64,000 nucleotides of DNA from Solwaraspora sp. WMMA2065. Its GTDB lineage: Bacteria > Actinomycetota > Actinomycetes > Mycobacteriales > Micromonosporaceae. Under the pieces are notes generated by a model. That model did no database searches, was not told the origin of the DNA, and worked only from the letters and a program-made list of their open reading frames with translations. Positions 18,864 to 64,000 of the stretch are shown here, piece after piece (position 1 is the first letter of the stretch; each line of letters starts with the position of its first letter). Location: assembly GCF_030345075.1 (NCBI RefSeq), contig NZ_CP128361.1, positions 1,860,001 to 1,924,000 of the forward strand, written 5' to 3'. Made by a program: the position numbers and the translations under genes.

Positions 18864-24332
<5,469 letters not shown>

Positions 24333-25244: not shown

Positions 25245-28235
25245 TCAGCTCAGCGGCTCGACCCAGATGTTGCGGTACTGCACGGTGTTCTGGTGGTCCT
25301 GCAGCCGGATCGATCCGGTCGCCGGCCCCTCGGGGATGTTCCCGCCGGTCGGGCCGGTGATGGCGACGTCGTCGTGCACCGTCACGCCGTTCCAGACCAG
25401 GGTGACCCTGGCGTCGGAGGTCTTCTCACCGGCGCTGTCGTAGCGGGCCGCAAGGTAGGTGATGTCGTAGGTCTGCCAGGTCTCCGGCGGCCTCGCGACG
25501 TTGACATCCGGTGCCTTCTGCAGATAGATCGCACCCGCCTCGTTGTTGTCGAGGGTCGGGTCCCCGTACGAGTCGAGGATCTGGATCTCGTACCGCTCCT
25601 GCAGGTAGACGCCGCTGTTGCCGCGGTTCTGCCCGGTGACCTCCGGCGGCAGCTGCGGCACTTTGAACTCGACGTGCAGCCGGAAGTCGCCGAACGCCTG
25701 CCGGGTGCGCAGATCGCCGCAGCAGGCCTCCATCGCCCCGTCACCGACCACCGGCCAGCTCGCCGAGCGCCCGTCGGTGTGCTGCCACTCCGACAGGTTG
25801 CCGCCGTCGAACAGCACGATCCGTTCACCCGGCTTACGGACGGTGACCAGGTCCAGGTTGACGTGACCGGTGTCGGTGGCATCCACCCGGTACTGGATCG
25901 CGTTGGTGCCCCGACGCAGGGTGAGCAGTTCGGTCTTGGTGGCCCATTCCTGCCAGGTGACGGTGCTGGGCAGGACGGTCTGCCGGACCTTCTCGCCGTT
26001 GACATAGATGCTGACCGTCTTGTCCCCTTGGAACGGGTTCGGACCGTTGCTGTAGCGCAGCCCCACCTCGTACTCGCCGTTGCGCTTCACCTCGACGTGC
26101 ACGGTGTTGGCGGCGTTCAACTCGCCGAACCCGGCCACAAAGCCGACGCCCGAGTGGCCGGCGTGCTCGGTGTCGTACCGGGCACTGCCCTGCTGGTAGC
26201 CCTCCTCGGCCTCATAGAAGATCCGGTCCGGCTGGGCACCGGGAATGGCGTTGAGGGTGTACCAGGCCTCGGTGCTCCACAGCTCCTCGCCGTTGGAGGC
26301 GGTGAACGAGCGCGGCGAGCGCAGGTGCACCACCCGGCCCTGCTGCAGGCCGTCGACCATCAACCGGACGGTACGCCGGTCGTTGGAGACGATGACCTCG
26401 CGGACGGTCAGCGTCTCCTCGTCGACCTTCGGTCCGCCGTACGTGGGGGTCGGCGCGTAGCGCCACTGCTTGATCTGGAAGCGCTCGGCGATGTCCTGGA
26501 TGGTGTCAGTTGACAGCGGCCGGGTGTATTCGATCTTGAAGCCGTTCGGGGTGGCGCTCATCGACTTCATGTCGAACGTCCGGTTGCCGTTCGGCGTCAG
26601 CTTCTGCAGTCCGTACCGCAGCTTGCCGGCCTGACCCCAGTTGCCGTCGGCACCGAGCCCACCCACGTAGATCGACCCGTCCGGGCCGATCGAGACCTCG
26701 TTGACGCCGGCCTCCAGCCCCTGGGTGTGCCGGAACACCGCGCCCTGGTACTCGCCGTGCACCTCCTCCAGGTACGCGCGCTGCAGGCCACCGTAGGTGA
26801 CGTCACCGATCAGGAACTGGTCCCGGTACGGGCCCTTCTTGATCCGCACCGGGGTGCTCGGCGAGTTGGCGATCTCGTTCTGCGGCAGCCAGAGCGCCGG
26901 TTGGCTGACCGGGTTGGCGTCGAACGGACCGTCCGGGTTGGTGTAGTGGTTGAAGAACCGGTCCTGCTCGATGTGCACCAGCTTGGAGGCGGGCAGCCAG
27001 CCACCCTGGTTGTCGGTGACGAAGAGCTCCTGGTCCCGGCCCCAACCGATGCCGTTCGGGGTCCGCAGACCACCGGCGATGTAGCTGACCTCGCCGGTGC
27101 GCCGGTTCACCTTGATGCTGGTGCCCCGGTTGCCGATCGGCTGCGGGTCGGTGGTGGCGCCGCCGTAGTCGATCGCCACCGAGAGGTTGAGGTAGAAGTG
27201 GCCGCCCCGGTAGAGCAGGCCAAAGGCGAACTCGTGGAAGTTGCCCCCGTACGGCCAGCTGGCCACCGTCCGGTACTCGTCGGCGACCTCGTCGCCGTCG
27301 ATGTCGTGCAGCTCGGTCAGCTCGTGCTTCTGTGCGACGTAGATGGTGCCGTCGACCACCGCCAGGCCCATCGGCTCCCGCAGGCCGCTGGCGACCTTCT
27401 TGTACGTGACCTGTTCGGCACTGGTCGGCCCGGTGACGTTCTCGACGATGTAGACCTCGCCGAGAACTTCCTCACTGCCGCCCCAGGTGGCGATGACCAG
27501 TCGACCGTCCTCGGTCCAGTCCATACCCGAGACCTGCGGCTCGAACCCGTCCGGCCGTAGGTCGGTCAGGGTGTAGTCGGGGTGCACCGCGTCCAGCGGA
27601 AGCCCGTCGCCGGGGGTGTCGGTGACCCCCTGGCATGCCTTGCGGCCGGGCGCGGTCACCCGGACCACGCCGGCGGCGGTACTCAGTACGGAGTTGGGCA
27701 CGACGGCGAACTCCTCGGCGCCCGGCGGTTGCCAGGACAGGGTGAGCTCCTGCCCACCGCCGGCCTCGAAGTACTCGACCCGCAACGCGTGGTAACCCTC
27801 GGTCAGGGTCACCGCGCCGTCCATCAAGGTCGCCCCGTGCAGCCCGTCGTGGTCGATGACCACCGCGTCGTCGATGTAGAGACGGGAGCCGTCGTCGCTG
27901 ACCAGCCGGAACGTGTACGTGCCTGCGGCGGCGACGTGCAGGTTCGCGAGGGCGTGCGTGACGAAGTTGTCCTCCTGCCCGAAGTCGTCCGCCGTGGACC
28001 AGTCGACGATCGGCATCAACTTGTCGACGTTCGGGGTCTGCCCGGGTTTGAGGGTGCAGATCTCGGTCAGCGGTACGCCGATGTCATACGTACGCAGGGT
28101 GACACCCGGCTCCTGCGGCGGCAGGTCAGCGACCTGGGCAGCGGCCGGTGACGAACTGACGGCGGTCAGTGAGACGAGCAGGGCGGTGACAACGAATATT
28201 GCCGGGCCACGTGTTCTTGGCGGGCGTGGAGACAT
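25245..28235 (-). CDS. Secreted PA14 / beta-propeller / CBM / DUF1080 protein
   Basis: This 996-residue exported protein has a signal peptide (1-33, ending PAAA). A PA14-like carbohydrate-binding domain (about 43-172) includes SDDGSRLYIDDAVVIDHDG. A sorbosone-dehydrogenase-like beta-propeller follows (about 238-550; GMDWTEDGRLVIATWGG). A CBM6/35-like module (about 670-795) starts FYEAEEGYQQGSARYD. The C-terminal DUF1080/3-keto-disaccharide-hydrolase domain (about 803-990) has NRGNSGVYLQERYEIQILDS. The design suggests binding and oxidising or hydrolysing a polysaccharide or oxidised sugar outside the cell. ATG 28235, with GGGGGAGG upstream, is preferred over an earlier in-frame start. It is a single gene. 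The DUF1080 module recurs at 57491. Confidence 0.88.
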   Translation of the reverse strand: MSPRPPRTRGPAIFVVTALLVSLTAVSSSPAAAQVADLPPQEPGVTLRTYDIGVPLTEICTLKPGQTPNVDKLMPIVDWSTADDFGQEDNFVTHALANLHVAAAGTYTFRLVSDDGSRLYIDDAVVIDHDGLHGATLMDGAVTLTEGYHALRVEYFEAGGGQELTLSWQPPGAEEFAVVPNSVLSTAAGVVRVTAPGRKACQGVTDTPGDGLPLDAVHPDYTLTDLRPDGFEPQVSGMDWTEDGRLVIATWGGSEEVLGEVYIVENVTGPTSAEQVTYKKVASGLREPMGLAVVDGTIYVAQKHELTELHDIDGDEVADEYRTVASWPYGGNFHEFAFGLLYRGGHFYLNLSVAIDYGGATTDPQPIGNRGTSIKVNRRTGEVSYIAGGLRTPNGIGWGRDQELFVTDNQGGWLPASKLVHIEQDRFFNHYTNPDGPFDANPVSQPALWLPQNEIANSPSTPVRIKKGPYRDQFLIGDVTYGGLQRAYLEEVHGEYQGAVFRHTQGLEAGVNEVSIGPDGSIYVGGLGADGNWGQAGKLRYGLQKLTPNGNRTFDMKSMSATPNGFKIEYTRPLSTDTIQDIAERFQIKQWRYAPTPTYGGPKVDEETLTVREVIVSNDRRTVRLMVDGLQQGRVVHLRSPRSFTASNGEELWSTEAWYTLNAIPGAQPDRIFYEAEEGYQQGSARYDTEHAGHSGVGFVAGFGELNAANTVHVEVKRNGEYEVGLRYSNGPNPFQGDKTVSIYVNGEKVRQTVLPSTVTWQEWATKTELLTLRRGTNAIQYRVDATDTGHVNLDLVTVRKPGERIVLFDGGNLSEWQHTDGRSASWPVVGDGAMEACCGDLRTRQAFGDFRLHVEFKVPQLPPEVTGQNRGNSGVYLQERYEIQILDSYGDPTLDNNEAGAIYLQKAPDVNVARPPETWQTYDITYLAARYDSAGEKTSDARVTLVWNGVTVHDDVAITGPTGGNIPEGPATGSIRLQDHQNTVQYRNIWVEPLS

Positions 28236-28544
28236 TCCTCCCCCTTCGAGGGTGCTGATGAATGCCGCGATCGCAACCATCGCCGAGGGGTTGCCTGCCC
28301 GGTGGACGAGATCATCTCGAAGCACGGCTGCGGCACATCATGGGTTACATTCGCTGAAGTGGCAAGATCTTCTGAGGAATCGGATCAAACTTTTGCTCTT
28401 GACAGACAAAAGATCCTGCAGTGGCCGCGACGTCCGTCGAAGGACCGGCCGTCAGGGCGGTCGGCGGAATGTGTGTCCACCCGGCACACCGGCACGAGAC
28501 GGTAGAGTCGGCGGGCCGACCTGCGCCCATCAGAAGGAGTGCCG
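28236..28544. other. Divergent intergenic region
   Basis: This 309-bp gap between the secreted protein and the methyltransferase-fold gene is relatively AT-rich for the window. It contains a perfect TTGACA (28399-28404) without a clear matching -10. A TAGAGT at 28503-28508 could serve as a -10 for the rightward gene. I see no gene in it. Confidence 0.5.
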
Positions 28545-52829: not shown

Positions 52830-52884
52830 GTCGCCGCCGGTACGCCGGGCGGCCGGTGCCCGGCGACTTTGCCTCGATCAACGT

Positions 52885-52903
52885 TTAGGGTAGCCTCACC
52901 TAA
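52885..52903 (+). promoter_or_regulatory. IdeR/DmdR/DtxR-type iron box
   Basis: TTAGGGTAGCCTCACCTAA is a 19-bp near-palindrome matching the actinobacterial iron-box consensus TTAGGTTAGGCTAACCTAA, especially TTAGG and CCTAA at the ends. It ends one base before the ATG at 52905, so the operon is probably repressed by iron-loaded regulator and may be leaderless. Confidence 0.88.
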
Positions 52904-52904
52904 C

Positions 52905-53720
52905 ATGATCGCGACGGCGTTGCACGGCGACGACCTGGTGCTCGGATACCAGCGCACCACGGTCGTCCACGGCGTGTCCGTCGCCATCCACCCCGGCGTG
53001 GTGACCGCCCTGATCGGCCCCAACGGCAGTGGCAAGTCCACCGTGCTGCGTTCGCTCGCCCGACTGCACCGGGCATCGTCCGGCCGGATCATGCTCAGCA
53101 GCGGCAACGGCGACCTCGAGGACGCGGCACCGCTGTCCGCCCGCGACTTCGCCCGCCGGGTGACCCTGCTGTCCCAGTCGCGACCGCACCCGTCCGGCCT
53201 GCGGGTCCGCGACGTCGTCGCCTTCGGGCGCCACCCGCACCGGCGCCGGTTCAGCCCGCTCACCGACACCGACCAGGCGATGGTCGACCACGCCATGGAG
53301 CTGACCGGGACCACGCCGATGGCCCACCGCGCGGTCGACCAGCTCTCCGGCGGTGAGCTGCAACGGGTGTGGCTGGCCGCCTGTCTCGCCCAGGACACCG
53401 GCGTGCTGCTGCTCGACGAGCCGACCAACCATCTCGACCTGCGCTACCAGGTCGAGATCCTCGACCTGGTCCGTGACCTCGCGGACCGGCACCAGACGGC
53501 GCTCGGCGTCGTCCTGCACGACCTGAACCAGGCCGCCGACGTGGCCGACCAGATCGTGCTGCTGAGCCAGGGCCGGGTGCGGGCCGCCGGCCCGGCGGCC
53601 GAGGTACTGACCACGGAGCACCTCTCCGAGGTCTACGGGTTGCCGATCGACACCACCGTGGACCCGGCCACCGGTCTGGTGCGGGTCGAGCCCCGAGGGC
53701 GACACCACCGGCGCCGCTGA
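52905..53720 (+). CDS. Siderophore ABC transporter ATP-binding protein (FecE/FhuC-like)
   Basis: This 271-residue ATPase of the ferric-siderophore/B12 importer family has Walker A GPNGSGKST at 38-46, signature LSGGELQRVWLAACLAQ, Walker B LLLDEPTNHLD, and GVVLHDLNQAADVADQI, all typical of FecE/FhuC. It powers import through the fused permease at 54785. ATG 52905 directly after the iron box is chosen; an in-frame GTG at 52869 lies upstream of the box and would be read only without it. It is followed by the binding-protein gene after 30 bp. Confidence 0.93.
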   Translation: MIATALHGDDLVLGYQRTTVVHGVSVAIHPGVVTALIGPNGSGKSTVLRSLARLHRASSGRIMLSSGNGDLEDAAPLSARDFARRVTLLSQSRPHPSGLRVRDVVAFGRHPHRRRFSPLTDTDQAMVDHAMELTGTTPMAHRAVDQLSGGELQRVWLAACLAQDTGVLLLDEPTNHLDLRYQVEILDLVRDLADRHQTALGVVLHDLNQAADVADQIVLLSQGRVRAAGPAAEVLTTEHLSEVYGLPIDTTVDPATGLVRVEPRGRHHRRR

Positions 53721-53750
53721 TCGCCCGGTCAACCAACGAGTGAGGAACCC

Positions 53751-54779
53751 ATGAGAACCCGATCGATGACGGCTGCCCTGGCCGCCGTCCTGTTTATCCC
53801 GTCGGCGCTGGCCGCCTGCGGCACCAGCGACCCGCAGACCGCAGACGAGACGCCCACGGCCAACGCCTCCGGTGATTGCGCCGACGACACCACCGTGACC
53901 TCTACCGGACCGGTGGAGGTCACCGACGCGCTCGGGCGCACCGTGACGTTGGACGAGCCGGCACAGCGGGTGGCCGTACTGGAATGGCAGCAGATCGAGG
54001 ACGTCCTCACCCTGTGCCTCACCCCGGTGGCGGTGGCCGACCCGGACGGCTACCGCACCTGGGACACCGCCGAGGAGCTGCCGGACGGCGTCGCCGACGT
54101 GGGACTGCGCGGCGAGCCCAACCTCGACGCGCTGTTCGCCGCCGACCCGGACCTGGTGATCGTCGAGGCCACCGCCGAGGACGACCCGGTCATCGCGCAG
54201 CTCGCCGAGTACGACGTCCCGGTGCTGGCCACCCGGGGGGCGGATGCCGCCGACCCGGTCCAGAACATGCTGGACACCTTCGCGATGATCGCCGAGACCC
54301 TCGGCCGCTCCGATCGGGCCGACCTCGTCGCCGACGAGTTCCAGGCCAGCCTGGACGAGGCGAAGCAGCAGATCGCCGGCGCTGAGCTCACGAGCACCGA
54401 GTTCGTCTACTTCGACGGCTGGGTCCAGGGCGGCAACGTCGCTATCCGGCCGTTCGGCCAGGGATCGCTGGTCGGTGAACTCGGCGAGGCGATCGGCCTG
54501 ACGAACGCCTGGACCGGCGAGGTCGACCCGGCGTACGGCCTTGGTCAGACCGACATCGAGGGGATGACCACCGTCGGCGACGCCACCCTGTTGTACACCG
54601 GCACCACCGACCCCGCCGGCAGCGTCCTGACCGAGCTGGAGAAGAACGAGATCTGGGCGTCGCTGCCGGCGGTCGAGCAGGGGCGGGCGTACGCCTTCCC
54701 GGCCGGCATCTGGACCTTCGGCGGCCCCCGCTCGTCGCAGCAGGTGCTCGACGCCTACGTCGACGTCCTGGCCAGCTGA
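53751..54779 (+). CDS. Siderophore-binding lipoprotein (FecB/FepB-like)
   Basis: This 342-residue periplasmic-binding-type lipoprotein of the FecB/TroA class has signal AVLFIPSALAACG with a lipobox LAAC (Cys about residue 22). The mature part has VEVTDALGRTVTLDEPAQRV, EPNLDALFAADPDLVIVEAT and the C-terminal WASLPAVEQGRAYAFPAGIW, normal for family III solute-binding proteins. It captures a ferric siderophore outside the membrane and passes it to the permease. The type of siderophore cannot be predicted. It lies between the ATPase and the fused permease in the iron-box operon. Confidence 0.92.
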   Translation: MRTRSMTAALAAVLFIPSALAACGTSDPQTADETPTANASGDCADDTTVTSTGPVEVTDALGRTVTLDEPAQRVAVLEWQQIEDVLTLCLTPVAVADPDGYRTWDTAEELPDGVADVGLRGEPNLDALFAADPDLVIVEATAEDDPVIAQLAEYDVPVLATRGADAADPVQNMLDTFAMIAETLGRSDRADLVADEFQASLDEAKQQIAGAELTSTEFVYFDGWVQGGNVAIRPFGQGSLVGELGEAIGLTNAWTGEVDPAYGLGQTDIEGMTTVGDATLLYTGTTDPAGSVLTELEKNEIWASLPAVEQGRAYAFPAGIWTFGGPRSSQQVLDAYVDVLAS

Positions 54780-54784
54780 CCATC

Positions 54785-56911
54785 GTGAACGACGGTCCAC
54801 GGGTGCCCACGGGGCTCCGTCCGACGCCGGGCACCGTCGCCACCAGACCGGTGGCGGCGTCCGGTGCGGACCGCCGGGCCGTGGTCGGCGGGTTGGGCAC
54901 CCTGCTGTCGCTCGGGCTGGCCCTGGTGGTCGCCGCCGGCTGGCACCTGACCCAGGGCACCTCGGGGGTGGGGCTCGCCGACCTGCTCGCGGCGGCGGGC
55001 GGCGGGGACACAGGTGCCGACGAGGCGGTCCGGGAGATCCTGCTCGGCTCCCGGCTCCCGCGGCTGGCGGCCGGAATCGCGGTCGGCTTCGCCCTCGGCG
55101 TCGCCGGCGCGCTGTTCCAGTCGCTGGCCCGCAACACACTCGCCTCACCGGACACCCTCGCGGTGACCGCGGGGGCGTACTTCGCCGTCAGTGCGGTCGC
55201 GGCGTTCGGCCTCGGTGTGCCGCTCTGGGCGTCGGGCGTCGTCGCCTTCGTCGGCGGGCTGCTGGCCGCCGGTCTCGTTCTGGGTCTCGCCGGCGGCGCG
55301 GGCAGCTCGACGACTCGTCTCGTGCTGGCCGGCTCCGTCGTCGCGATGGCGTTGCAGTCGGCCACGGCCGCGGTGCTGATCGGCTTCCAGCAGGAAACGA
55401 CCGGGCTGTTCGCCTGGGGCAGCGGATCGCTGAGCCAGCTCGGGCTGACCGCCTTCGGGCAGGCCGCGCCGGTCGTGGTCGGCGCCACGGCTGTGGCCGG
55501 GCTGCTGGCCCGCCGACTCGACCTGCTGGGTCTCGGCGACGACACGGCCGGGGCGCTGGGCGTACCGGTCCGGGCGACCCGGGCGGTCGGGACGGTGCTC
55601 GCGGTGCTGCTCACCGCGGCGGCGGTGACCCTGGCCGGCCCGATCGGGTTCGTCGGTCTCTGCGCGCCGGCGGTGACCCGGATGTCGGCACGGTTCGTAC
55701 CGGCGCTGCACCGGCACGCCGTACTGGTGCCGGCGGCGGGTCTGGTCGGCGCGCTGACGGTCGTCCTGGCCGACGGGGTGATCCGCGCCCTGCTCGGCGC
55801 GGACCGGGCCGGTCAGGTGCCGACCGGGGTGGCCACCACCCTGGTCGGTGCCGTCCTGCTCATCGTGCTGGCCCGCCGGGTACGCGACTTCGGCCCGACC
55901 CGGCAACCGCCGGGCAGCCGGATGGGGCCCCGGAGCCGCCGCCGGTACCGGACGGTCCTGGCGGTCGTCAGCGCGACCGCCGCCGGCGCCGGGCTGCTCG
56001 GCCTGCTCGCCGGCAACACCTGGCTGCTCACCGGCGACATCGCGCTCTGGCTGTCCGGTGAAGGACCGCCCGTCATCCGCTTCGCACTGGACGAACGGGC
56101 ACCACGGGTGGCGGCGGCGCTGGCCGCCGGGGGTGCCCTCGCGTTGTCCGGTTCCCTGGTCCAGGCGACCTGCCGCAATCCGCTCGCCGAGCCGGGAATC
56201 CTCGGCATCACCGGTGGGGCCGGGCTGGCCGCAGTGATCGTGGTGACCGGCGGCGTCGGCGGCAACGCGACGATGATCGCCGCCGCCACCGGCGCCGCGC
56301 TGGCCGCCTTCGGTCTGGTCTACTCCGTGGCCTGGCGGGGCGGGCTGCACACCGACCGGCTGGTCCTGATCGGTGTCGGGGTCTGGTACGCGGCGACCGC
56401 CCTGACGACCTATCTGCTGGTGCGGTCGAATCCGTGGGACACGCCGAAGATCTACACGTGGCTGTCCGGCACGACGTACGGCCGCAGTTGGACCCAGGTG
56501 GTCCCGGTGGTGGTCGCCCTGCTGGTGGCGCTGCCGGTCGCCCTGGCCGCCCACCGCGAGCTGGACCTGATCGCGATCGACGAGGACTCGCCCCGGATCG
56601 TCGGTGTCGGTCTGGAACGGATCCGTCTCCTGGTGCTGGCGGTCGCCGCCGTGCTGGCCGCGTTGAGCGTGACCGCGATCGGTGTCGTCGGCTTCGTCGG
56701 ACTGGTCGCGCCGCACGCCGCACGGGCGCTCGTCGGCGGCCGGCACGCGCGGATCATCCCGGTCGCGGTGCTGCTCGGTGCGGTCCTGCTCGGACTGGCC
56801 GACACCGTGGGCCGTACCGTCGTCGCGCCGGCCCAACTGCCGGCCGGCCTGGCGGTGGCGTTGATCGGTGCCCCGTACTTCGTCTACCTACTGGCCCGGT
56901 CCCGGGCCTGA
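54785..56911 (+). CDS. Fused double FecCD-type siderophore permease
   Basis: This 708-residue polytopic protein contains two complete FecCD permease units in tandem. The first (about 35-365) includes LPRLAAGIAVGFALGVAGAL and FQSLARNTLASPDTLAVTAG. The second (about 380-708) includes RVAAALAAGGALALSGSLVQ, CRNPLAEPGILGITGGAGLA and VGVGLERIRLLVLAVAAVLA. It resembles FhuB-like fusions, so a separate second permease is unnecessary. Predicted start GTG 54785 lies 5 bp after the lipoprotein stop. With the two upstream genes it makes a complete importer. Confidence 0.92.
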   Translation: MNDGPRVPTGLRPTPGTVATRPVAASGADRRAVVGGLGTLLSLGLALVVAAGWHLTQGTSGVGLADLLAAAGGGDTGADEAVREILLGSRLPRLAAGIAVGFALGVAGALFQSLARNTLASPDTLAVTAGAYFAVSAVAAFGLGVPLWASGVVAFVGGLLAAGLVLGLAGGAGSSTTRLVLAGSVVAMALQSATAAVLIGFQQETTGLFAWGSGSLSQLGLTAFGQAAPVVVGATAVAGLLARRLDLLGLGDDTAGALGVPVRATRAVGTVLAVLLTAAAVTLAGPIGFVGLCAPAVTRMSARFVPALHRHAVLVPAAGLVGALTVVLADGVIRALLGADRAGQVPTGVATTLVGAVLLIVLARRVRDFGPTRQPPGSRMGPRSRRRYRTVLAVVSATAAGAGLLGLLAGNTWLLTGDIALWLSGEGPPVIRFALDERAPRVAAALAAGGALALSGSLVQATCRNPLAEPGILGITGGAGLAAVIVVTGGVGGNATMIAAATGAALAAFGLVYSVAWRGGLHTDRLVLIGVGVWYAATALTTYLLVRSNPWDTPKIYTWLSGTTYGRSWTQVVPVVVALLVALPVALAAHRELDLIAIDEDSPRIVGVGLERIRLLVLAVAAVLAALSVTAIGVVGFVGLVAPHAARALVGGRHARIIPVAVLLGAVLLGLADTVGRTVVAPAQLPAGLAVALIGAPYFVYLLARSRA

Positions 56912-57490: not shown

Positions 57491-59464
57491 ATGGCAGTCA
57501 ACCCTGACCAACACGGCGGAGCTGTCCGCCCGAGCAGAGCACCGACCCGACCGCGACGGTCGCTGACCGCGCTGGCGGCCGTGGTCGGCATGGTCCTCAC
57601 CACCACATTGGCCGCGGCGCCGGTCAACGCCCGCCCGACCCACGGCGGTCCACCGGAGTACCGGGCCGCCCAGGTACTGACCTGGACCACGGGCAACGAC
57701 GTCACCGCGTACACCTCGGCGCCGACCACCGCCGAGCCCGGCCCGGCGACGCTGGTCTTCGAGAACAGCGCAGCGACCGGCAACACCAGCGGCATGCAGC
57801 ACACGCTCACCTTCGAGACCGCTGACCCGACCTACAACCAGGACGTGAACGTCAACATCCTGGCCGACCCGTACGACGCCAACGGCGGCCTGTGGACCGT
57901 CGACGTGGTACTCACTCCGGGGACGTACCGGTACTTCTGCGCCATCCCCGGCCACGGTCTGATGAACGGGCTACTGGTGGTCAGCGACGACAACACCGAA
58001 GACACCACCGCGCCCCAGGTGACCGCGGCGCTGGCCGGGCCGCGCGACGACGACGGGGGCTACCTCGGTGCCGCCACCGTCACCCTCACCGCCACCGACG
58101 ACATGTCCGGTGTCGACACCATCGAACACTCCCTCGACGGCGACGAGTTCAGCGAGTACACCGCCCCGGTCACCGTCAACGAGCCGGGCCAGCACACGCT
58201 GACCTACCGGGCGACCGACATCGCCGGAAACACCTCGGACCCGCGGTCGGTCACCTTCACCGTCACCACGCCCCCGGACCCGGACACCACCGCACCCACG
58301 GTGACCTCGTCCGTCTCCGGTGCCCGGACGCCGGACGGCGGCTACCTCGACACCGCGACGGTGACCCTGATCGCGACCGACGACGACTCCGGGGTCGCCA
58401 GTGTCGAGTACTCCCTCGACAGCGGTGCCTACACCGGCTACACCGCCCCGGTCACGGTGAACAGCCCGGGTACGCACACGGTCAGCTACCGCGCCACCGA
58501 CGAAGCCGGCAACACCTCCGATCCCGGATCGGTCACCTTCACCGTGGTCGCCGGCGGCGGCGATCCGCAGTGCCCGGTGCTGGACACCCGCCCGACGGTC
58601 TGGCTGGGCACCCGCAACAGTGCGGTGCCCAACCGGCAGGTGGGTCCCGGCTGCACCATCAACAACCTGATCGCCAGCGAACGGATCTGGCGTAACCACA
58701 ACGAGTTCATGCAGCACGTCCGCGCGGTGGTCAAGAACCTGCGCGAACAGGGTGTCATCAGCCAGGCCGAGCGGGTCACCCTGATCGACACGGCCAAGCT
58801 GTCGGCAGTCGGCAAGTCGGACGCCCACACCGGCTACCAGCCGATCCTCAACCGGTCGGGCGCGTCGTTCGATCAGTGGGAGCAGGTCGGCGCGGGCGGG
58901 TTCACCCGCAACGCCGACGGTTCGATCACCAGCCGGCCGGTCGCCGGACTCGGCCTGCTCTGGTTCCCGATCCGCAGCTACGGCGACTTCTCGGTGAAGC
59001 TGCAGTGGCGCGACGACGCCCCGGGTGACGCCCGGGCCAACAGCGGCGTCTTCGTCCGGTTTCCCGGCGTGCACCAGCATCCGCAGGAGCCCCGGCCGGA
59101 ATGGGTGGCCATCAAGTACGGCCACGAGGTGCAGATCTTCGACGGCCCGGTCGGCGACCGCTACAAGACCGGTTCGGTGTACGGGTTCGACGGCGTCGAC
59201 GTTGACGCCGCCGGGGTCACCCCGAAGGGCACCTGGAACGACTACGAGATCCGGGTGGTCGGGCAGCACTACTCGATCTTCCGCAACGGGGAGCTGGTCA
59301 ACGAGTTCGTCAACACCCCTGACCTGGTGTTCGACCCGCCTCGGGCCGACGACCCGGGCGGTGCCGGTCGGCAGCGGACCGAAGGTTACCTCGGCCTGCA
59401 GGTGCACGGCGCGGACGACATCGTCAGCTTCCGCAACGTCCGGATCGCCCCGCTGACGCCGTGA
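57491..59464 (+). CDS. Secreted cupredoxin / OmpL47-repeat / DUF1080 protein
   Basis: This 657-residue exported protein starts with a twin-Arg-containing long signal region (about 1-48; TRPRRSLTALAAVVGMVL). A plastocyanin-like domain (about 57-170) shows type-1 copper ligands H104, C150, H155 and M158 (FCAIPGHGLM). Two OmpL47-type Ig-like repeats follow (about 176-350; DDMSGVDTIEHSLDG and DDDSGVASVEYSLDS). A Cys-containing module (about 355-455) has RPTVWLGTRNSAVPN and GPGCTINNLI. A C-terminal DUF1080 domain (about 455-655) follows. It could transfer electrons or bind copper while acting on an oxidised sugar. ATG 57491 has AAAGG nine bases upstream. It leads the three-gene operon. Confidence 0.85.
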   Translation: MAVNPDQHGGAVRPSRAPTRPRRSLTALAAVVGMVLTTTLAAAPVNARPTHGGPPEYRAAQVLTWTTGNDVTAYTSAPTTAEPGPATLVFENSAATGNTSGMQHTLTFETADPTYNQDVNVNILADPYDANGGLWTVDVVLTPGTYRYFCAIPGHGLMNGLLVVSDDNTEDTTAPQVTAALAGPRDDDGGYLGAATVTLTATDDMSGVDTIEHSLDGDEFSEYTAPVTVNEPGQHTLTYRATDIAGNTSDPRSVTFTVTTPPDPDTTAPTVTSSVSGARTPDGGYLDTATVTLIATDDDSGVASVEYSLDSGAYTGYTAPVTVNSPGTHTVSYRATDEAGNTSDPGSVTFTVVAGGGDPQCPVLDTRPTVWLGTRNSAVPNRQVGPGCTINNLIASERIWRNHNEFMQHVRAVVKNLREQGVISQAERVTLIDTAKLSAVGKSDAHTGYQPILNRSGASFDQWEQVGAGGFTRNADGSITSRPVAGLGLLWFPIRSYGDFSVKLQWRDDAPGDARANSGVFVRFPGVHQHPQEPRPEWVAIKYGHEVQIFDGPVGDRYKTGSVYGFDGVDVDAAGVTPKGTWNDYEIRVVGQHYSIFRNGELVNEFVNTPDLVFDPPRADDPGGAGRQRTEGYLGLQVHGADDIVSFRNVRIAPLTP

Positions 59465-59537
59465 GCGGCCCGGGACCCCGACGGACAGACCACCACCCCC
59501 GACCGGCGATGACCGACGCGACGAACAGGAACGGACG

Positions 59538-60767
59538 TTGAACGAGACGACAGAGTTGAGCACCGGCCCGATCGACCGATCGGCCAGACCGGGTGGCCCG
59601 CCTGATAACGGCGTGGGCCGGGCCCTGGTGGTCCTGGCGGTCCTGGCGGTCACCTTCGCCAGCGCGGGTGCCGCGTACGCGGTCAACCACCGCGCCACCG
59701 ACCCGGTGGCCGCAGTCGAACCAGCCGACGGCGTGGTGCCCGGGGGCTGCGTGGCTCCGGACCGGGAGCTGCAGCTGTACGCCGTGGAGCTGCCCCGCGA
59801 CCCGGTGACCAACCAGATCCGGCTGGGCTACGGCCTGACCCCGCAGACCGCCTCCTACCCGGGCCCGACGATGGAGATGATCGAAGGCGAGTGCCTGGCG
59901 ATCACCCTGCACAACCAGGTGACCGCCGAGACGCTGGGTCAACTGCGGACCGATCCGGAGCACCCGCTCGGCGTCTCGTTGCACGCACACGGGGTGAAGT
60001 ACACCCAGGACTCCGACGGGACCGTACACAGTGGCTCCTATGTCGGGCCGGGTGAGTCCCGGACCTACACCTGGTACGCGAAGCCGCGCAGTTCCCGGAC
60101 CGGCTCGCCGGGCACCGCCGGCTACTGGTGGTACCACGACCACGTGGTCGGCGGCCCGCACGGCACCCAGGGCATCGGCTCGGGCCTGTTCGGCGGCCTG
60201 GTGGTACGCCGGCAGGGCGACCCCCGGCCGGACCGGACCTACGTGACGGTCTTCGGCGACCGCCAGTCGATCAACCTGCGTCGCGGGGCCGCGACCGACG
60301 ACTGCGACCTGGACAACCCGGTGCCCGGCCCGGCCTGCTTCGTCGCGAAGGTCGGCGAGCGGGTCGAGTTCATCGTGGTCGGCACCGGCGACGACATGCA
60401 CACCTGGCACGTCCACGGCCACTCCTGGGCGGACACCCGCACCGGCGTGGTCGCCGGCGACAACAAGGCGATCGTCGACTCCATCCCGGTTATCGACAAC
60501 AAGACCCTCGGTCCCGGTGACTCGTTCGGCGTGACCATCGTCGCCGGCGACTCGGTCGGACCGGGCCACTGGATGCTGCACTGCCACATGCAGTTCCACT
60601 CCGACCTGGGCATGGCCACCACCCTGCACGTCCTCGACGAGAACGGACAGATGCCGCCCGGCGGTCACCAGCACCGTGCGGTGCTCGCCCAGTCGGGTGT
60701 CGACGTCGGCGGCGAGCCGGCCGCCGACATCCAGGCCGGTGCCGGACACGACGGCCACCAGAACTGA
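59538..60767 (+). CDS. Two-domain multicopper oxidase
   Basis: This 409-residue oxidase carries all four copper-binding segments: LHAHG, WWYHDH, HTWHVHGHSW and HCHMQFHSDLGM. The Cys-His bridge links the type-1 and type-3 sites. An N-terminal hydrophobic segment (about 27-48) may be a signal anchor or export signal. Its length and two cupredoxin domains place it near small laccases, which oxidise phenols or metals with O2. Here it may re-oxidise a partner such as the cupredoxin at 57491 or the dehydrogenase at 60825. TTG 59538 with AGGAACGG upstream is the likely start. Confidence 0.88.
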   Translation: MNETTELSTGPIDRSARPGGPPDNGVGRALVVLAVLAVTFASAGAAYAVNHRATDPVAAVEPADGVVPGGCVAPDRELQLYAVELPRDPVTNQIRLGYGLTPQTASYPGPTMEMIEGECLAITLHNQVTAETLGQLRTDPEHPLGVSLHAHGVKYTQDSDGTVHSGSYVGPGESRTYTWYAKPRSSRTGSPGTAGYWWYHDHVVGGPHGTQGIGSGLFGGLVVRRQGDPRPDRTYVTVFGDRQSINLRRGAATDDCDLDNPVPGPACFVAKVGERVEFIVVGTGDDMHTWHVHGHSWADTRTGVVAGDNKAIVDSIPVIDNKTLGPGDSFGVTIVAGDSVGPGHWMLHCHMQFHSDLGMATTLHVLDENGQMPPGGHQHRAVLAQSGVDVGGEPAADIQAGAGHDGHQN

Positions 60768-60824
60768 ACCGTCCCAGCCACCCCACCCCGGCGCATCCCG
60801 CGCCGGCCGCTGTAAGGAGCAGGA

Positions 60825-63800
60825 ATGGCCGACAGACGCCATTTCAGATTCCCCCGACTGCGCCACCGATCAGCCGCCGCGGCCGCGGCCGTCACCCTGC
60901 TGGGCGGTCTGCTGACCGCGCCGGTCTCCCCCGCCCAGGCTGACCCCACGCCACCCACCTGGGGCAACCGGGTCGTCAACGTGCTGGTCTTCCACGGCCC
61001 CGAGGCCGAACAGAGCGACCCGGTCCGCCGGGCCACCAACGTCATCCGGCGGCTCGGCAACGAGCACGGCTTCTATGTGCACTCGTCCGACGATCCGAGC
61101 GTGTTCAACCCCGACAACCTGGCCCGCTACCGCAGCGTGGTCTTCCTCTCCACTGCCGGCGTCACCCTCGACGACGCGCAGGAGGCGGCGTTCCAGGCGT
61201 ACGTCAAGGGCGGCGGCGGCTTCGTCGGCGTGCACGACGCGGCGTACACCCAGCCCGGATCGGAATGGTTCACCGGTCTGCTCGGCACCCGGCCGGCACC
61301 CACCCTGCCGCCGGCGGAGACGGTGGTCGAGTCGAGCGCCAGCGGCAACAACCCGCCGAACGAGACCGCCAGCCACGCGTTCGACCGCGCCACCGGCACC
61401 AAGTGGCTGACCCGCTCCCCGACCGGCTGGCTGGCCGGTGAGCTGGCTGAGCCGACCGTGGTCAACCGGTACGCGCTCACCTCGGCCAACGACTTCCCCG
61501 GCCGCGACCCGCGGGACTGGACGCTGCAGGGGTCCAACGACGGCGAGAACTGGACCGATCTGGACCGCCGGACCGGGCAGAGCTTCCCACAGCGGTTCCT
61601 CACCCGGCAGTTCGCGTTCGACAACACCGAGGCCTACCGGCACTACCGGCTGGACATCACCGCGAACAGCGGCGAGCCGCTGACCCAGCTCGCCGAGCTC
61701 TGGCTGATCGGTGCCGACGCCGGCGCGGCACCGGAGACCCAGATCCAGCAGGCAGAGGTCGACGTCACCGACCGCAACCACCCGGCGACCCGCGACCTGC
61801 CGATGAACTGGACCCGCGACGACCAGTGGATCAGCTGGGACCCGAACCCGGTTGGTCGGGTGCACGTCGTCGCCCAGGTCGACGAGACCAGCTACGACGC
61901 AGGGCTCAGCGGCAACGGACCGTTCCACCCGGTGGCCTGGTGCCACGACTACGACGGTGGCCGGTCGTTCTACACCGGAATGGGCCGCACCGAGGCAAGC
62001 TGGGCCAAGGACCTCCAGTTCCGCGACCACATCCTCGGCGCGATCCAGTGGACCGCCGGCACGGTACGCGGTGACTGCCAGGCGACGATAGCCGCCAACT
62101 ACCGGATCGAGCGGCTCACCGGCACCAACCAGCAGGGTGAACTGGATCAGGTCGGTGAGCCGCACGGCCTGACCATCGCGCCGGACGGCACGGTCTTCTA
62201 CATCGGCCGCGCCGCCTGCCCCTCCGGGGCGATCCCCGACTGGTCGAACCCGGACATCGGCAAGGGCTGCGGCACCATCCACCAGTGGGATCCGCGGACT
62301 CGGGAGGTGAAGCTGCTCACCACTCTGGAGGTGATGGGCAACCGGGGCAGCGGCAGCGAGCTGGTCAAGAGCGAGGAGGGTCTGCTGGGCATGACCCTGG
62401 ATCCGGCGTTTACCGACAACGGCTGGTTCTACGTGTACTGGATGCCCCACGAGTCGATTGACCGGGAGAACCGGATCGGCCAGCGGACCGTGTCCCGGTT
62501 CACCTACGACCACGACAACGCCAGCATCGACCAGGCCACCCGTGAAGACCTGCTCAGCTGGGACACCCAGATCCACAGCTGCTGCCACGCCGGGGGTGGG
62601 ATGACCTTCGACGACGCGGGCAACCTGTACGTCAGCACCGGTGACGCCAACTCGTCCGGTGGCTCCAGCGGCTACTCCGGCAACAACTGGACCCAGGAGT
62701 ACGCCGGCGTCTCGTTCCAGGACGCCCGCCGTACCGCCGGCAATACCAACAACCTCAACGGCAAGATCCTGCGGATCACACCGAAACCGGACGGCACGTA
62801 CAGCATCCCGGACGGCAACCTGTTCACCGGCGAGGAGGAAGGCGGCGGCAAGACCCGCCCGGAGATCTACGTCATGGGGGTACGCAACCCGTCGCGCATC
62901 GCCTGGGACCCGGTCAACGACTGGCTGACCGCTGCCTGGGTCGGCCCGGACGCCACCAACCCGGATCCGGAACTCGGTCCGGCGAAGTACGAACACGCCA
63001 CGATCATCACCTCCGCCGGTAACCAGGGCTGGCCGTACTGCATGGGCAACCGGCAGCCGTACCGGGACCGCAGCAACACCGACGCGTCGGTACTGACCGG
63101 CTGGTACGACTGCGACAATCCGCGAAACACCTCGCCGCGGAACACCGGGCTGGTGAATCTGCCGCCGGTGCGCGACAACATGATCTGGTACTCGCCGCAG
63201 GGCGGCGGCCCGGTCTTCCCGACCCGTGCCGGTGGCAGCGGGTTGCCCACGTACGAGCCGGGCGAAGAGACCTTCACCCGGCCCTACCTGCGCGGTGGCG
63301 GCCAGGCCGTGATGAACGGCCCGACGTACCACCGCTCACAGGTCGACACCGACAGCGGTGTGGCCTGGCCGGTGCACTGGGACGGCAAGTGGTTCATCGG
63401 TGACCAGTCCAACGCGGACAACCGGGTGGCGGTCACCGTCGACCCGGCGGTGGTGCCCGACCAGGGCGCCCCCGCCTACGCGGAGGACCTTCGGGCGATC
63501 ATTCCCGGTGGCAACGGCGGCACCCAGTTGCAGCACTGGATGGACGCCAAGTTCGGCCCGGACGGCGCGCTCTACCTGCTGGACTACGGCGGCGGATTCT
63601 TCACCCTGCACGGCAATCAGAAGCTGATCCGGATCGTCTACGACGGCGGCGCGCCGACCCCGGGACCGGAGTACGCCTCGGCCCGGGTCCCGGATCCGAG
63701 CGACCCGCGTACGGTGACCTTCTCCAGCCACCGGGTGGGCGGGGTGGCCTGGGAGTGGACCTTCGGTGAGGGCAACCGGGTGTCGCACCTGCCGCACCCG

Positions 63801-64000
63801 ACCCACACCTACCGCAAGCACGGGCGGTTCGAGGCGACGGTGAAGGTGACCTACGCCGACGGCGAGGTGGCCGAGCACACCATCGTGGTCGACACCGGCT
63901 GCGACGCACCGGACGCCCGGGAGACGGTCTGGCTGCTGGACACCGACACCGGGGTGACGAACCACGACGCCGGTGCCGGGTGCACGGTCAACGACCTGAT
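60825..64000 (+). CDS. Giant secreted ThuA / F5-8C / GSDH / PKD protein, C-terminus beyond window
   Basis: At least 1058 residues stay open to the window end. Order: signal peptide (1-38), ThuA part 1 (about 52-163; VLVFHGPEAEQ), inserted F5/8-type C domain (about 164-300; SHAFDRATGTKWLT), ThuA part 2 (about 305-417; HPVAWCHDYDGGRSFYTGMG). A glucose/sorbosone dehydrogenase propeller (about 426-941; HSCCHAGGGMTFDDAGNLYV) and a PKD domain (about 958-1025) come next. The start of the shared Cys module has ARETVWLLDTDTGVTN and GAGCTVNDLI. ThuA proteins are linked to 3-keto-sugar metabolism, and GSDH domains oxidise sugars with PQQ. It would act outside the cell on glycans. AAGGAG lies 5 nt before ATG 60825. 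Confidence 0.87.
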   Translation, partial: MADRRHFRFPRLRHRSAAAAAAVTLLGGLLTAPVSPAQADPTPPTWGNRVVNVLVFHGPEAEQSDPVRRATNVIRRLGNEHGFYVHSSDDPSVFNPDNLARYRSVVFLSTAGVTLDDAQEAAFQAYVKGGGGFVGVHDAAYTQPGSEWFTGLLGTRPAPTLPPAETVVESSASGNNPPNETASHAFDRATGTKWLTRSPTGWLAGELAEPTVVNRYALTSANDFPGRDPRDWTLQGSNDGENWTDLDRRTGQSFPQRFLTRQFAFDNTEAYRHYRLDITANSGEPLTQLAELWLIGADAGAAPETQIQQAEVDVTDRNHPATRDLPMNWTRDDQWISWDPNPVGRVHVVAQVDETSYDAGLSGNGPFHPVAWCHDYDGGRSFYTGMGRTEASWAKDLQFRDHILGAIQWTAGTVRGDCQATIAANYRIERLTGTNQQGELDQVGEPHGLTIAPDGTVFYIGRAACPSGAIPDWSNPDIGKGCGTIHQWDPRTREVKLLTTLEVMGNRGSGSELVKSEEGLLGMTLDPAFTDNGWFYVYWMPHESIDRENRIGQRTVSRFTYDHDNASIDQATREDLLSWDTQIHSCCHAGGGMTFDDAGNLYVSTGDANSSGGSSGYSGNNWTQEYAGVSFQDARRTAGNTNNLNGKILRITPKPDGTYSIPDGNLFTGEEEGGGKTRPEIYVMGVRNPSRIAWDPVNDWLTAAWVGPDATNPDPELGPAKYEHATIITSAGNQGWPYCMGNRQPYRDRSNTDASVLTGWYDCDNPRNTSPRNTGLVNLPPVRDNMIWYSPQGGGPVFPTRAGGSGLPTYEPGEETFTRPYLRGGGQAVMNGPTYHRSQVDTDSGVAWPVHWDGKWFIGDQSNADNRVAVTVDPAVVPDQGAPAYAEDLRAIIPGGNGGTQLQHWMDAKFGPDGALYLLDYGGGFFTLHGNQKLIRIVYDGGAPTPGPEYASARVPDPSDPRTVTFSSHRVGGVAWEWTFGEGNRVSHLPHPTHTYRKHGRFEATVKVTYADGEVAEHTIVVDTGCDAPDARETVWLLDTDTGVTNHDAGAGCTVNDL

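Follow-up and report, generated by a model that had tools for sequence, protein, structure and literature searches.

A stretch of 64,000 nucleotides from Solwaraspora sp. WMMA2065 (hereafter the window) ends with three consecutive genes on the forward strand, encoding a cupredoxin-DUF1080 protein (gene 1), a two-domain multicopper oxidase (gene 2) and a protein with ThuA and GSDH domains (gene 3). We report that the oxidase, as judged from its sequence, is a small laccase of the SLAC family, and that it belongs to a cassette found in many other actinomycetes. This gene neighbourhood suggests that the small laccase naturally serves to transfer electrons extracellularly from sugars to oxygen. 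The genomic basis for the cassette is strong, and the mechanism that we set out for it is a proposal. The constituent families are known; we know of no description of their combination with a small laccase.

Gene 1 spans positions 57491–59464 from an ATG start (657 aa), within a longest open reading frame (ORF) that opens at GTG 57164 (766 aa). Gene 2 spans 59538–60767 from a TTG start (409 aa), and gene 3 opens at ATG 60825 and is still open at position 64000, the end of the window. Read from the genome beyond the window, the full gene 3 encodes 1326 aa (L006:4326–8306, approximately 60825–64805 in window numbering). Spacings of 73 bp between genes 1 and 2 and of 57 bp between genes 2 and 3 bear out an earlier reading made from the sequence alone (the sequence-only reading), which had described three consecutive same-strand genes with gaps of 57–73 bp.

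The small laccase and its conserved neighbours

The product of gene 2 has an N-terminal hydrophobic segment and the Pfam domains Cu-oxidase_3 and Cu-oxidase_2, and is the sole Cu-oxidase_2 match of its genome at E ≤ 0.001. Its best matches in the PDB are two-domain laccases. It carries the T1 motif HCHMQFHSDLGM, of the form HCHxxxHxxxxM and located in the second of its two oxidase domains, together with three HxH motifs of the kind that belongs to a trinuclear cluster. The copper-motif residues are invariant across 11 aligned sequences of the family, and the laccase motifs are kept in the best laccase of all fetched laccase-bearing loci (43, 80 and 12 loci); ten Streptomyces laccases deviate only at the residue after HxHG. 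A twin-arginine motif is visible by eye at the N-terminus of 8/11 aligned laccases, the window copy showing its hydrophobic segment there. The sequence-only reading had correctly called a two-domain multicopper oxidase and had overlooked its identity as a small laccase, which is the most consequential point. Small laccases are homotrimers in which a trinuclear copper cluster lies between subunits, and they reduce O2.

Small two-domain laccases of known structure share family and copper motifs with gene 2, and near-identical copies of them sit inside cassettes of this kind. The structure 3cg8, which we take to be SLAC, is identical to the laccase of S. coelicoflavus locus L159 in 312 of 327 aligned columns, and 5lhl, which we take to be SgfSL, to that of S. 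griseoflavus locus L140 in 320 of 322. For 3t9w, presumably from Amycolatopsis, 275 of 278 columns are identical to the laccase of locus L110. The parts of the literature available to us treat these enzymes as isolated phenol oxidases, without ThuA-GSDH or cupredoxin-DUF1080 partners, and the titles and abstracts listed from open-licence sources contain no link of small laccases to ThuA, DUF1080 or GSDH.

The distribution of the cassette was assessed in a sample of 298 genomes of the order, where laccase and gene 3 relatives were counted at E ≤ 1e-20. The laccase is present in 44 of these genomes and gene 3 relatives in 98. Gene 3 matches of E = 0 (long, with at least 61% identity) occur in exactly the same 44 genomes as the laccase, and the other 54 have more distant gene 3 relatives and no laccase match; the laccase is therefore tied to one ThuA-GSDH subfamily. 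Forty-five loci were fetched, covering 43 order genomes besides that of the window, and all three genes are found together in 41 of the 43 (42/44 with the window included). A second sample of 394 genomes of the class, which shares some genomes with the first, gave the laccase (E ≤ 1e-50) in 49 genomes, gene 3 (E ≤ 1e-150) in 48 and both in 48. Every one of these 48 pairs shares one contig, with the matched stretches at most 1918 bp apart, 30 of the pairs being divergent and 18 co-directional.

Named loci were taken as the best 80 of 501 laccase relatives by score and are hence close relatives (78 from Streptomyces, one from Kitasatospora and one from an 'Actinobacteria bacterium'). Since nearly all of them are Streptomyces, breadth was assessed from the order and class samples. 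Cupredoxin-DUF1080 and ThuA-GSDH counterparts lie within the locus in 79 of these best 80. Matches to the laccase occur in 48 records of a plasmid collection; three were examined, and the first, from S. fungicidicus (H1), has the partner genes beside the oxidase. Across cassettes there are at least three gene orders plus the divergent arrangement. A conserved neighbourhood in other actinomycetes, which the sequence-only reading had named as a way to check its operon and whose absence it had counted as refuting, is thus found in six family-level groups of the two samples (f1, f15, f31, f33, f34 and f43) and in named Streptomyces records. Judged by co-occurrence across genomes, the arrangement is not due to chance.

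This co-occurrence also bears on whether the genes serve copper homeostasis, or form some other copper-oxidase system, with sugar-enzyme neighbours that are accidental. Copper-ligand motifs in both the laccase and the cupredoxin would fit such a role, but the laccase tracks gene 3 in 44/44 and 48/49 genomes, and gene 2 scores 32 bits with the copper-resistance oxidase (CopA type) model TIGR01480, against a cut-off of 478.95. No copper-transport-named Pfam family was found in the ORFs scanned on either side of the window cassette (three upstream, six downstream); at other loci the searches covered cassette and window-neighbour genes only. We regard this explanation as very improbable.

The DUF1080 domain is mobile within the cassette. 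Among the 45 order loci it is found in both proteins in 9, in the GSDH protein only in 35 and in neither in one (L102, the sole locus without a GSDH or cupredoxin match); the window cassette has it in both. Among the best 80 of 501 named relatives it is in the cupredoxin protein only in 78, the remaining two (L145 and L147) having cupredoxin and DUF1080 matches mutually out of frame. Twelve further class stretches have it in the GSDH protein (7), the cupredoxin protein (1) or neither (4), and four of the 12 are without gene 3. Apart from the exceptions named in this text, ThuA, GSDH, cupredoxin and laccase are retained. Because the set stays together despite a mobile DUF1080 and changing gene order, we infer that it has one shared task.

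Domain make-up of the partner proteins

Gene 1 encodes a secreted-type cupredoxin, two immunoglobulin (Ig)-like repeats of the OmpL47 type (178.7 bits in NCBIfam, cut-off 40), a domain with a Cys pair and no annotation (domain X, approximately 58559–58819) and a DUF1080 domain (58835–59446; PF06439, E = 4.1e-32, residues 558–761 of the 766-aa ORF). Ortholog alignment places the cupredoxin domain at approximately 57641–57994 (MQHTLTF ... C-AIPG-H-GL-M). Its Pfam Copper-bind score is 16.4 bits (E = 0.013), under the cut-off of 21.2; ortholog L119 reaches 24.4 bits and ortholog L133 is unlisted at E up to 1. The type 1 copper ligands H213, C259, H264 and M267 (numbering of the 766-aa ORF) are invariant in 10/10 aligned gene 1 orthologs, and the motif is present in 43/45 order loci, 79/80 named loci and 9/12 further class loci. 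Six loci miss it: five lack any cupredoxin match, and in the sixth the motif is spaced differently.

The DUF1080 domains of the cassette score 112.2 and 120.7 bits, against the PF06439 gathering score of 26.8. They are 3-keto-disaccharide hydrolase-like and are predicted to hydrolyse 3-keto-glycosides. Domain X (about 80–100 aa, with its Cys pair) precedes DUF1080 in gene 1 and again in gene 3, and forms the protein end in seven of the eight printed cupredoxin proteins that lack DUF1080. Because of this C-terminal position it may be a docking domain.

Gene 3 combines, from 60825 onwards, a signal-like N-terminus, a split ThuA domain, a GSDH propeller, a PKD domain, domain X and DUF1080. The ThuA match (PF06283, E = 2.7e-58, 198.1 bits, gathering score 33.4) consists of two stretches that flank an F5/8 type C (discoidin-like) module at 61335–61697 (PF00754, residues 171–291). 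The GSDH domain matches PF07995 at E = 1.7e-20, and the C-terminal DUF1080 (E = 9.8e-35) lies outside the window. The domain calls of the sequence-only reading were borne out, this last domain having been beyond its view. The best PDB match of the F5/8 type C module is a module of the GH92 mannosidase 7nsn, a resemblance that gives a weak hint of mannan-like substrates. The insert is present in 6/11 aligned gene 3 proteins, including that of the window, and is missing in both Streptomyces proteins and in L096, L110 and L216.

ThuA-GSDH genes also occur elsewhere. The Solwaraspora genome has three more such loci, near G000:C1 positions 5870705, 2813318 and 2474778 (L021, L022 and L023), whose proteins all have the Cys-Cys-His motif described below. 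In loci L108 and L120–L126 the laccase is preceded, at a distance of roughly 3 kb upstream, by an extra ThuA-GSDH gene that is only distantly related to gene 3 (about 34% identity).

Relatives of gene 3 are found in 86 records of the plasmid collection, and those examined were taken from the top of the list, not at random. Of the haloarchaea, Haladaptatus has the fusions ThuA-GSDH-Malectin-Copper-bind and Cupredoxin_1-GSDH-Copper-bind and Halocatena has Copper-bind-GSDH; Runella has GSDH-PKD-cytochrome c-CBM6 and Natronococcus has DUF1080-GSDH. No laccase match was obtained in the stretches fetched from Haladaptatus, Halocatena and Runella (L216, L217 and L232). With the GSDH-cupredoxin fusions as support, a copper carrier and an O2-reducing oxidase encoded beside sugar-oxidoreductase-like and keto-sugar-hydrolase-like domains, as the sequence-only reading had put it, is a fair description of the cassette.

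The propeller active site and the proposed electron chain

The GSDH β-propeller was modelled over the region encoded at 62094–63656. An AlphaFold2 model from 50 sequences reached a pLDDT of 89.1 and a pTM of 0.93; an earlier model from 9 close sequences (pLDDT 57.8) was discarded as poor. In a Foldseek search the best match was the soluble PQQ glucose dehydrogenase 1c9u (E = 1.1e-17, probability 1.00), with a TM-score of 0.55 by query length. We take the catalytic residues of that enzyme to be His144, Arg228 and Asn229, with the Gly247-Pro248 pair also functional. By alignment, the equivalents of the first three are each conserved in 50/50 sequences, that of Gly247 in 50/50 and that of Pro248 in 48/50. 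The propeller fold and the His/Arg/Asn equivalents are thus shared with the soluble PQQ glucose/aldose dehydrogenases 1c9u, 3das and 2ism. Compared with these, the gene 3 propeller is about 520 residues in size, is fused to ThuA and DUF1080, has an anchoring Arg replaced and has Cys-Cys before the catalytic His. The Cys pair directly precedes the catalytic-His equivalent in 48/48 ThuA-type sequences, the remaining two rows being L007 and L008, canonical dehydrogenases of the Solwaraspora genome itself. It brings to mind the vicinal disulfide that we presume for methanol dehydrogenase, an analogy and not a result. From sequence and model, the gene 3 protein is a putative sugar dehydrogenase.

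The analysis establishes gene and domain content, copper-ligand motifs, a propeller fold with its catalytic equivalents, very strong co-occurrence and clustering, and fusions of GSDH to copper or haem carriers. The explanation that we favour is a secreted, copper-wired module, in which glycosides would be first oxidised and then cleaved. The GSDH propeller of gene 3 would oxidise a sugar hydroxyl, most likely giving a keto-glycoside. The type 1 copper of the cupredoxin in gene 1 would take up the electrons and hand them on to the T1 copper of the gene 2 laccase, whose trinuclear cluster would reduce O2 to water. Cleavage or other processing of the oxidised (3-keto) glycoside would fall to the ThuA and DUF1080 domains, and the Ig repeats, F5/8 type C and X modules may keep the parts near the wall or substrate. 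The position oxidised, the substrate, the electron flow and the cleavage step are the inferred parts of this scheme. Taken as a whole, the route from sugar through GSDH, cupredoxin and laccase to O2, with ThuA/DUF1080 cleavage of the oxidised glycoside, has in our judgement an even chance of being correct.

A number of observations weigh against it. The laccase of the window is only 41–43% identical to the crystallised small laccases (over aligned columns, with gaps counted), and the Fisher statistics for co-occurrence leave the relatedness of the genomes out. Two order genomes depart from the cassette: in G063 the laccase and gene 1 lie beside a gene 3 paralog of 57% identity while the closer gene 3 is on another contig, and in G174 about 440 kb separate the laccase from the other two genes. 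The fetched stretch of L145 (Kitasatospora aureofaciens) has no intact gene 3, only a ThuA fragment, and a Paenibacillus relative of gene 3 (ThuA-GSDH-PKD-CBM6) has no carrier domain. In the class genome G312, laccase genes and a cupredoxin lie at a contig edge, and neither of the two stretches fetched contains gene 3. The second plasmid record, of Streptomyces NBC_00316 (H2, L134), encodes a small laccase 65% identical to that of L140, and the third (H3) a Methylocystis oxidase (30%); neither has a cupredoxin, ThuA, GSDH or DUF1080 match within 8 kb, and both therefore argue against a universal link of laccase and cassette. At the propeller, Hedgehog-interacting protein, which has the same fold and is not an enzyme, also matches the model. 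We take Arg406 and Arg408 to be the PQQ-anchoring residues; by alignment, without superposition, the Arg408 position is Met in 48/50 sequences. Furthermore, no PqqE over the cut-off was found in the window's own genome, and in the available part of a study on Teredinibacter, a domain pair resembling PQQ dehydrogenases is described as not binding PQQ (PMC10916295).

At the loci L231 (genome G379) and L220 (genome G312), a pair of laccase genes adjoins a cupredoxin gene, and the stretch fetched has no gene 3. They suggest that the laccase-cupredoxin pair is able to stand alone, and the gene content of L231 is consistent with a direct partnership of the two proteins.

The Arg408 position is Arg just in L007 and L008. 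At the Arg406 position, 37/50 sequences have Asn or Ser, one has Arg and five have a gap. Given Met in place of an anchoring Arg, Cys-Cys ahead of the catalytic His and a host genome with no PqqE over the cut-off, PQQ dependence, which the sequence-only reading had proposed to check, is unsupported. The host may take up PQQ. PqqE over the cut-off is present in just 15 of the 44 cassette genomes (0/24 in the window's own family), so PQQ biosynthesis is no requirement for the cassette.

The Met at the Arg408 position and the lack of a PqqE over the cut-off in the host would also suit a hydrolase complex in which the GSDH-like propeller is a binding or scaffold domain and the laccase, as redox partner of the cupredoxin, has another job such as cross-linking or pigment formation. 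They are joined there by the fold common to Hedgehog-interacting protein and by a score of 42.8 bits for gene 3 with TIGR03606, whose curated cut-off of 434.55 is not reached. Against it stand the retained His/Arg/Asn equivalents and Gly-Pro pair and the 78% mean column identity over the GSDH domain (nine sequences), and elsewhere propellers of this type are fused to haem and copper carriers. We consider such a scaffold unlikely.

Another explanation concerns phenolic glycosides, from which ThuA, DUF1080 and GSDH would strip the sugar, leaving the laccase to oxidise the freed phenol; no electron chain would link the two steps, and the cupredoxin would assist the laccase or the provision of copper. 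In keeping with this use, 57 of the best 80 of 501 named relatives have a gene for a LacI-type regulator at some distance, which varies, downstream of the laccase. In the available parts of the reports, SLAC oxidises 12 of 23 substrates, plant phenolics among them (PMC3918160), and Caulobacter LacABC is active on salicin, with DUF1080 proteins that may act on 3-ketosalicin (PMC9007349). The retention of the cupredoxin in nearly every locus is, however, left unexplained, as are the GSDH-cupredoxin and GSDH-cytochrome c fusions at L216, L217 and L232, loci whose fetched stretches gave no laccase match. On balance we find this use of the genes doubtful.

The sugar side of the proposal, oxidation and then hydrolysis of a glycoside, is modelled on a scheme put forward for lactose use in Caulobacter, with its lactose 3-dehydrogenase LacABC. 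The subunits of that enzyme include a GMC flavoprotein (LacA) and a cytochrome (LacC); no GMC flavoprotein or cytochrome c domain came up when the three cassette proteins were scanned with Pfam, and in the cassette the GSDH propeller, cupredoxin and laccase would replace flavoprotein and cytochrome. Both systems would oxidise and then hydrolyse outside the cytoplasm, and the accessible part of the Caulobacter study places a DUF1080 protein, CCNA_01705, near LacABC and proposes it as a 3'-ketolactose hydrolase (PMC9007349). It further cites BT2157 as a 3-ketotrehalose hydrolase and another DUF1080 protein as an endo-xanthanase/lichenase (PMC9007349); because of the latter, direct glycan hydrolysis by DUF1080 is also possible, by analogy. 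From what we could consult, the fungal AA12 PQQ pyranose dehydrogenase and the Teredinibacter redox proteins similarly join extracellular propeller-type or similar domains to electron-transfer modules and act, or are thought to act, on carbohydrates (for Teredinibacter, PMC10916295). The carriers in those systems are haem, whereas that of the cassette is a cupredoxin, and the available portion of the Teredinibacter paper does not mention ThuA, DUF1080, cupredoxin or laccase (PMC10916295).

For most bacterial laccases that have been characterised, the part of the literature seen calls the physiological function unknown (PMC3527528), and the roles speculated for Streptomyces laccases, again from partial text, include morphogenesis and pigmentation, lignocellulose degradation, bacterial interactions and antibiotics (PMC7036934). 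Many structures of these enzymes have been solved, and the conserved partner genes supply them with a concrete substrate chain that can be tested. We tentatively extend the proposal to the family: SLAC-family laccases of bacteria could primarily act not as phenol oxidases but as terminal oxidases in a secreted electron chain that is built on copper alone and oxidises glycosides outside the cell, with a propeller cofactor possibly other than PQQ, Cys-Cys beside the catalytic His and keto-glycosides cleaved by ThuA/DUF1080, as a copper counterpart of the Gram-negative cytochrome systems. If true, Gram-positive bacteria would have an O2-linked electron chain for glycan breakdown beyond the membrane, and lignin-oriented work on laccases would be redirected to sugar oxidation.

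Borders of the cassette and surrounding genes

A promoter and terminator scan detected no site. Downstream of gene 3 are two overlapping minus-strand ORFs (L006:8722–10214) with the transposase domains DDE_Tnp_1_6 and DUF772, which argues for no additional operon member on that side. Upstream, siderophore-type ABC genes (52869–56911) were considered as part of the cassette and rejected, as FecCD-like matches occur in just 2/45 neighbour loci (L110 and L117), about 5 kb or more from the cassette. Matches to abcA at 26–40% identity are present in many neighbour loci and were interpreted as general ABC ATPases. Within this group, a single 708-aa ORF at 54785–56911 has two FecCD stretches, that is, a fused siderophore-type permease, and adjoins a binding protein and an ATPase.

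Elsewhere in the window, a 1026-aa protein encoded on the minus strand at 25245–28325 also ends in a DUF1080 domain, preceded by PA14, a DUF7133-like match (25.7 bits against a cut-off of 27) and CBM35. Also on the minus strand, an 1822-aa ORF at 18864–24332 combines biotin carboxylase, biotinyl and carboxyltransferase domains in an acetyl-CoA-carboxylase-like single chain.

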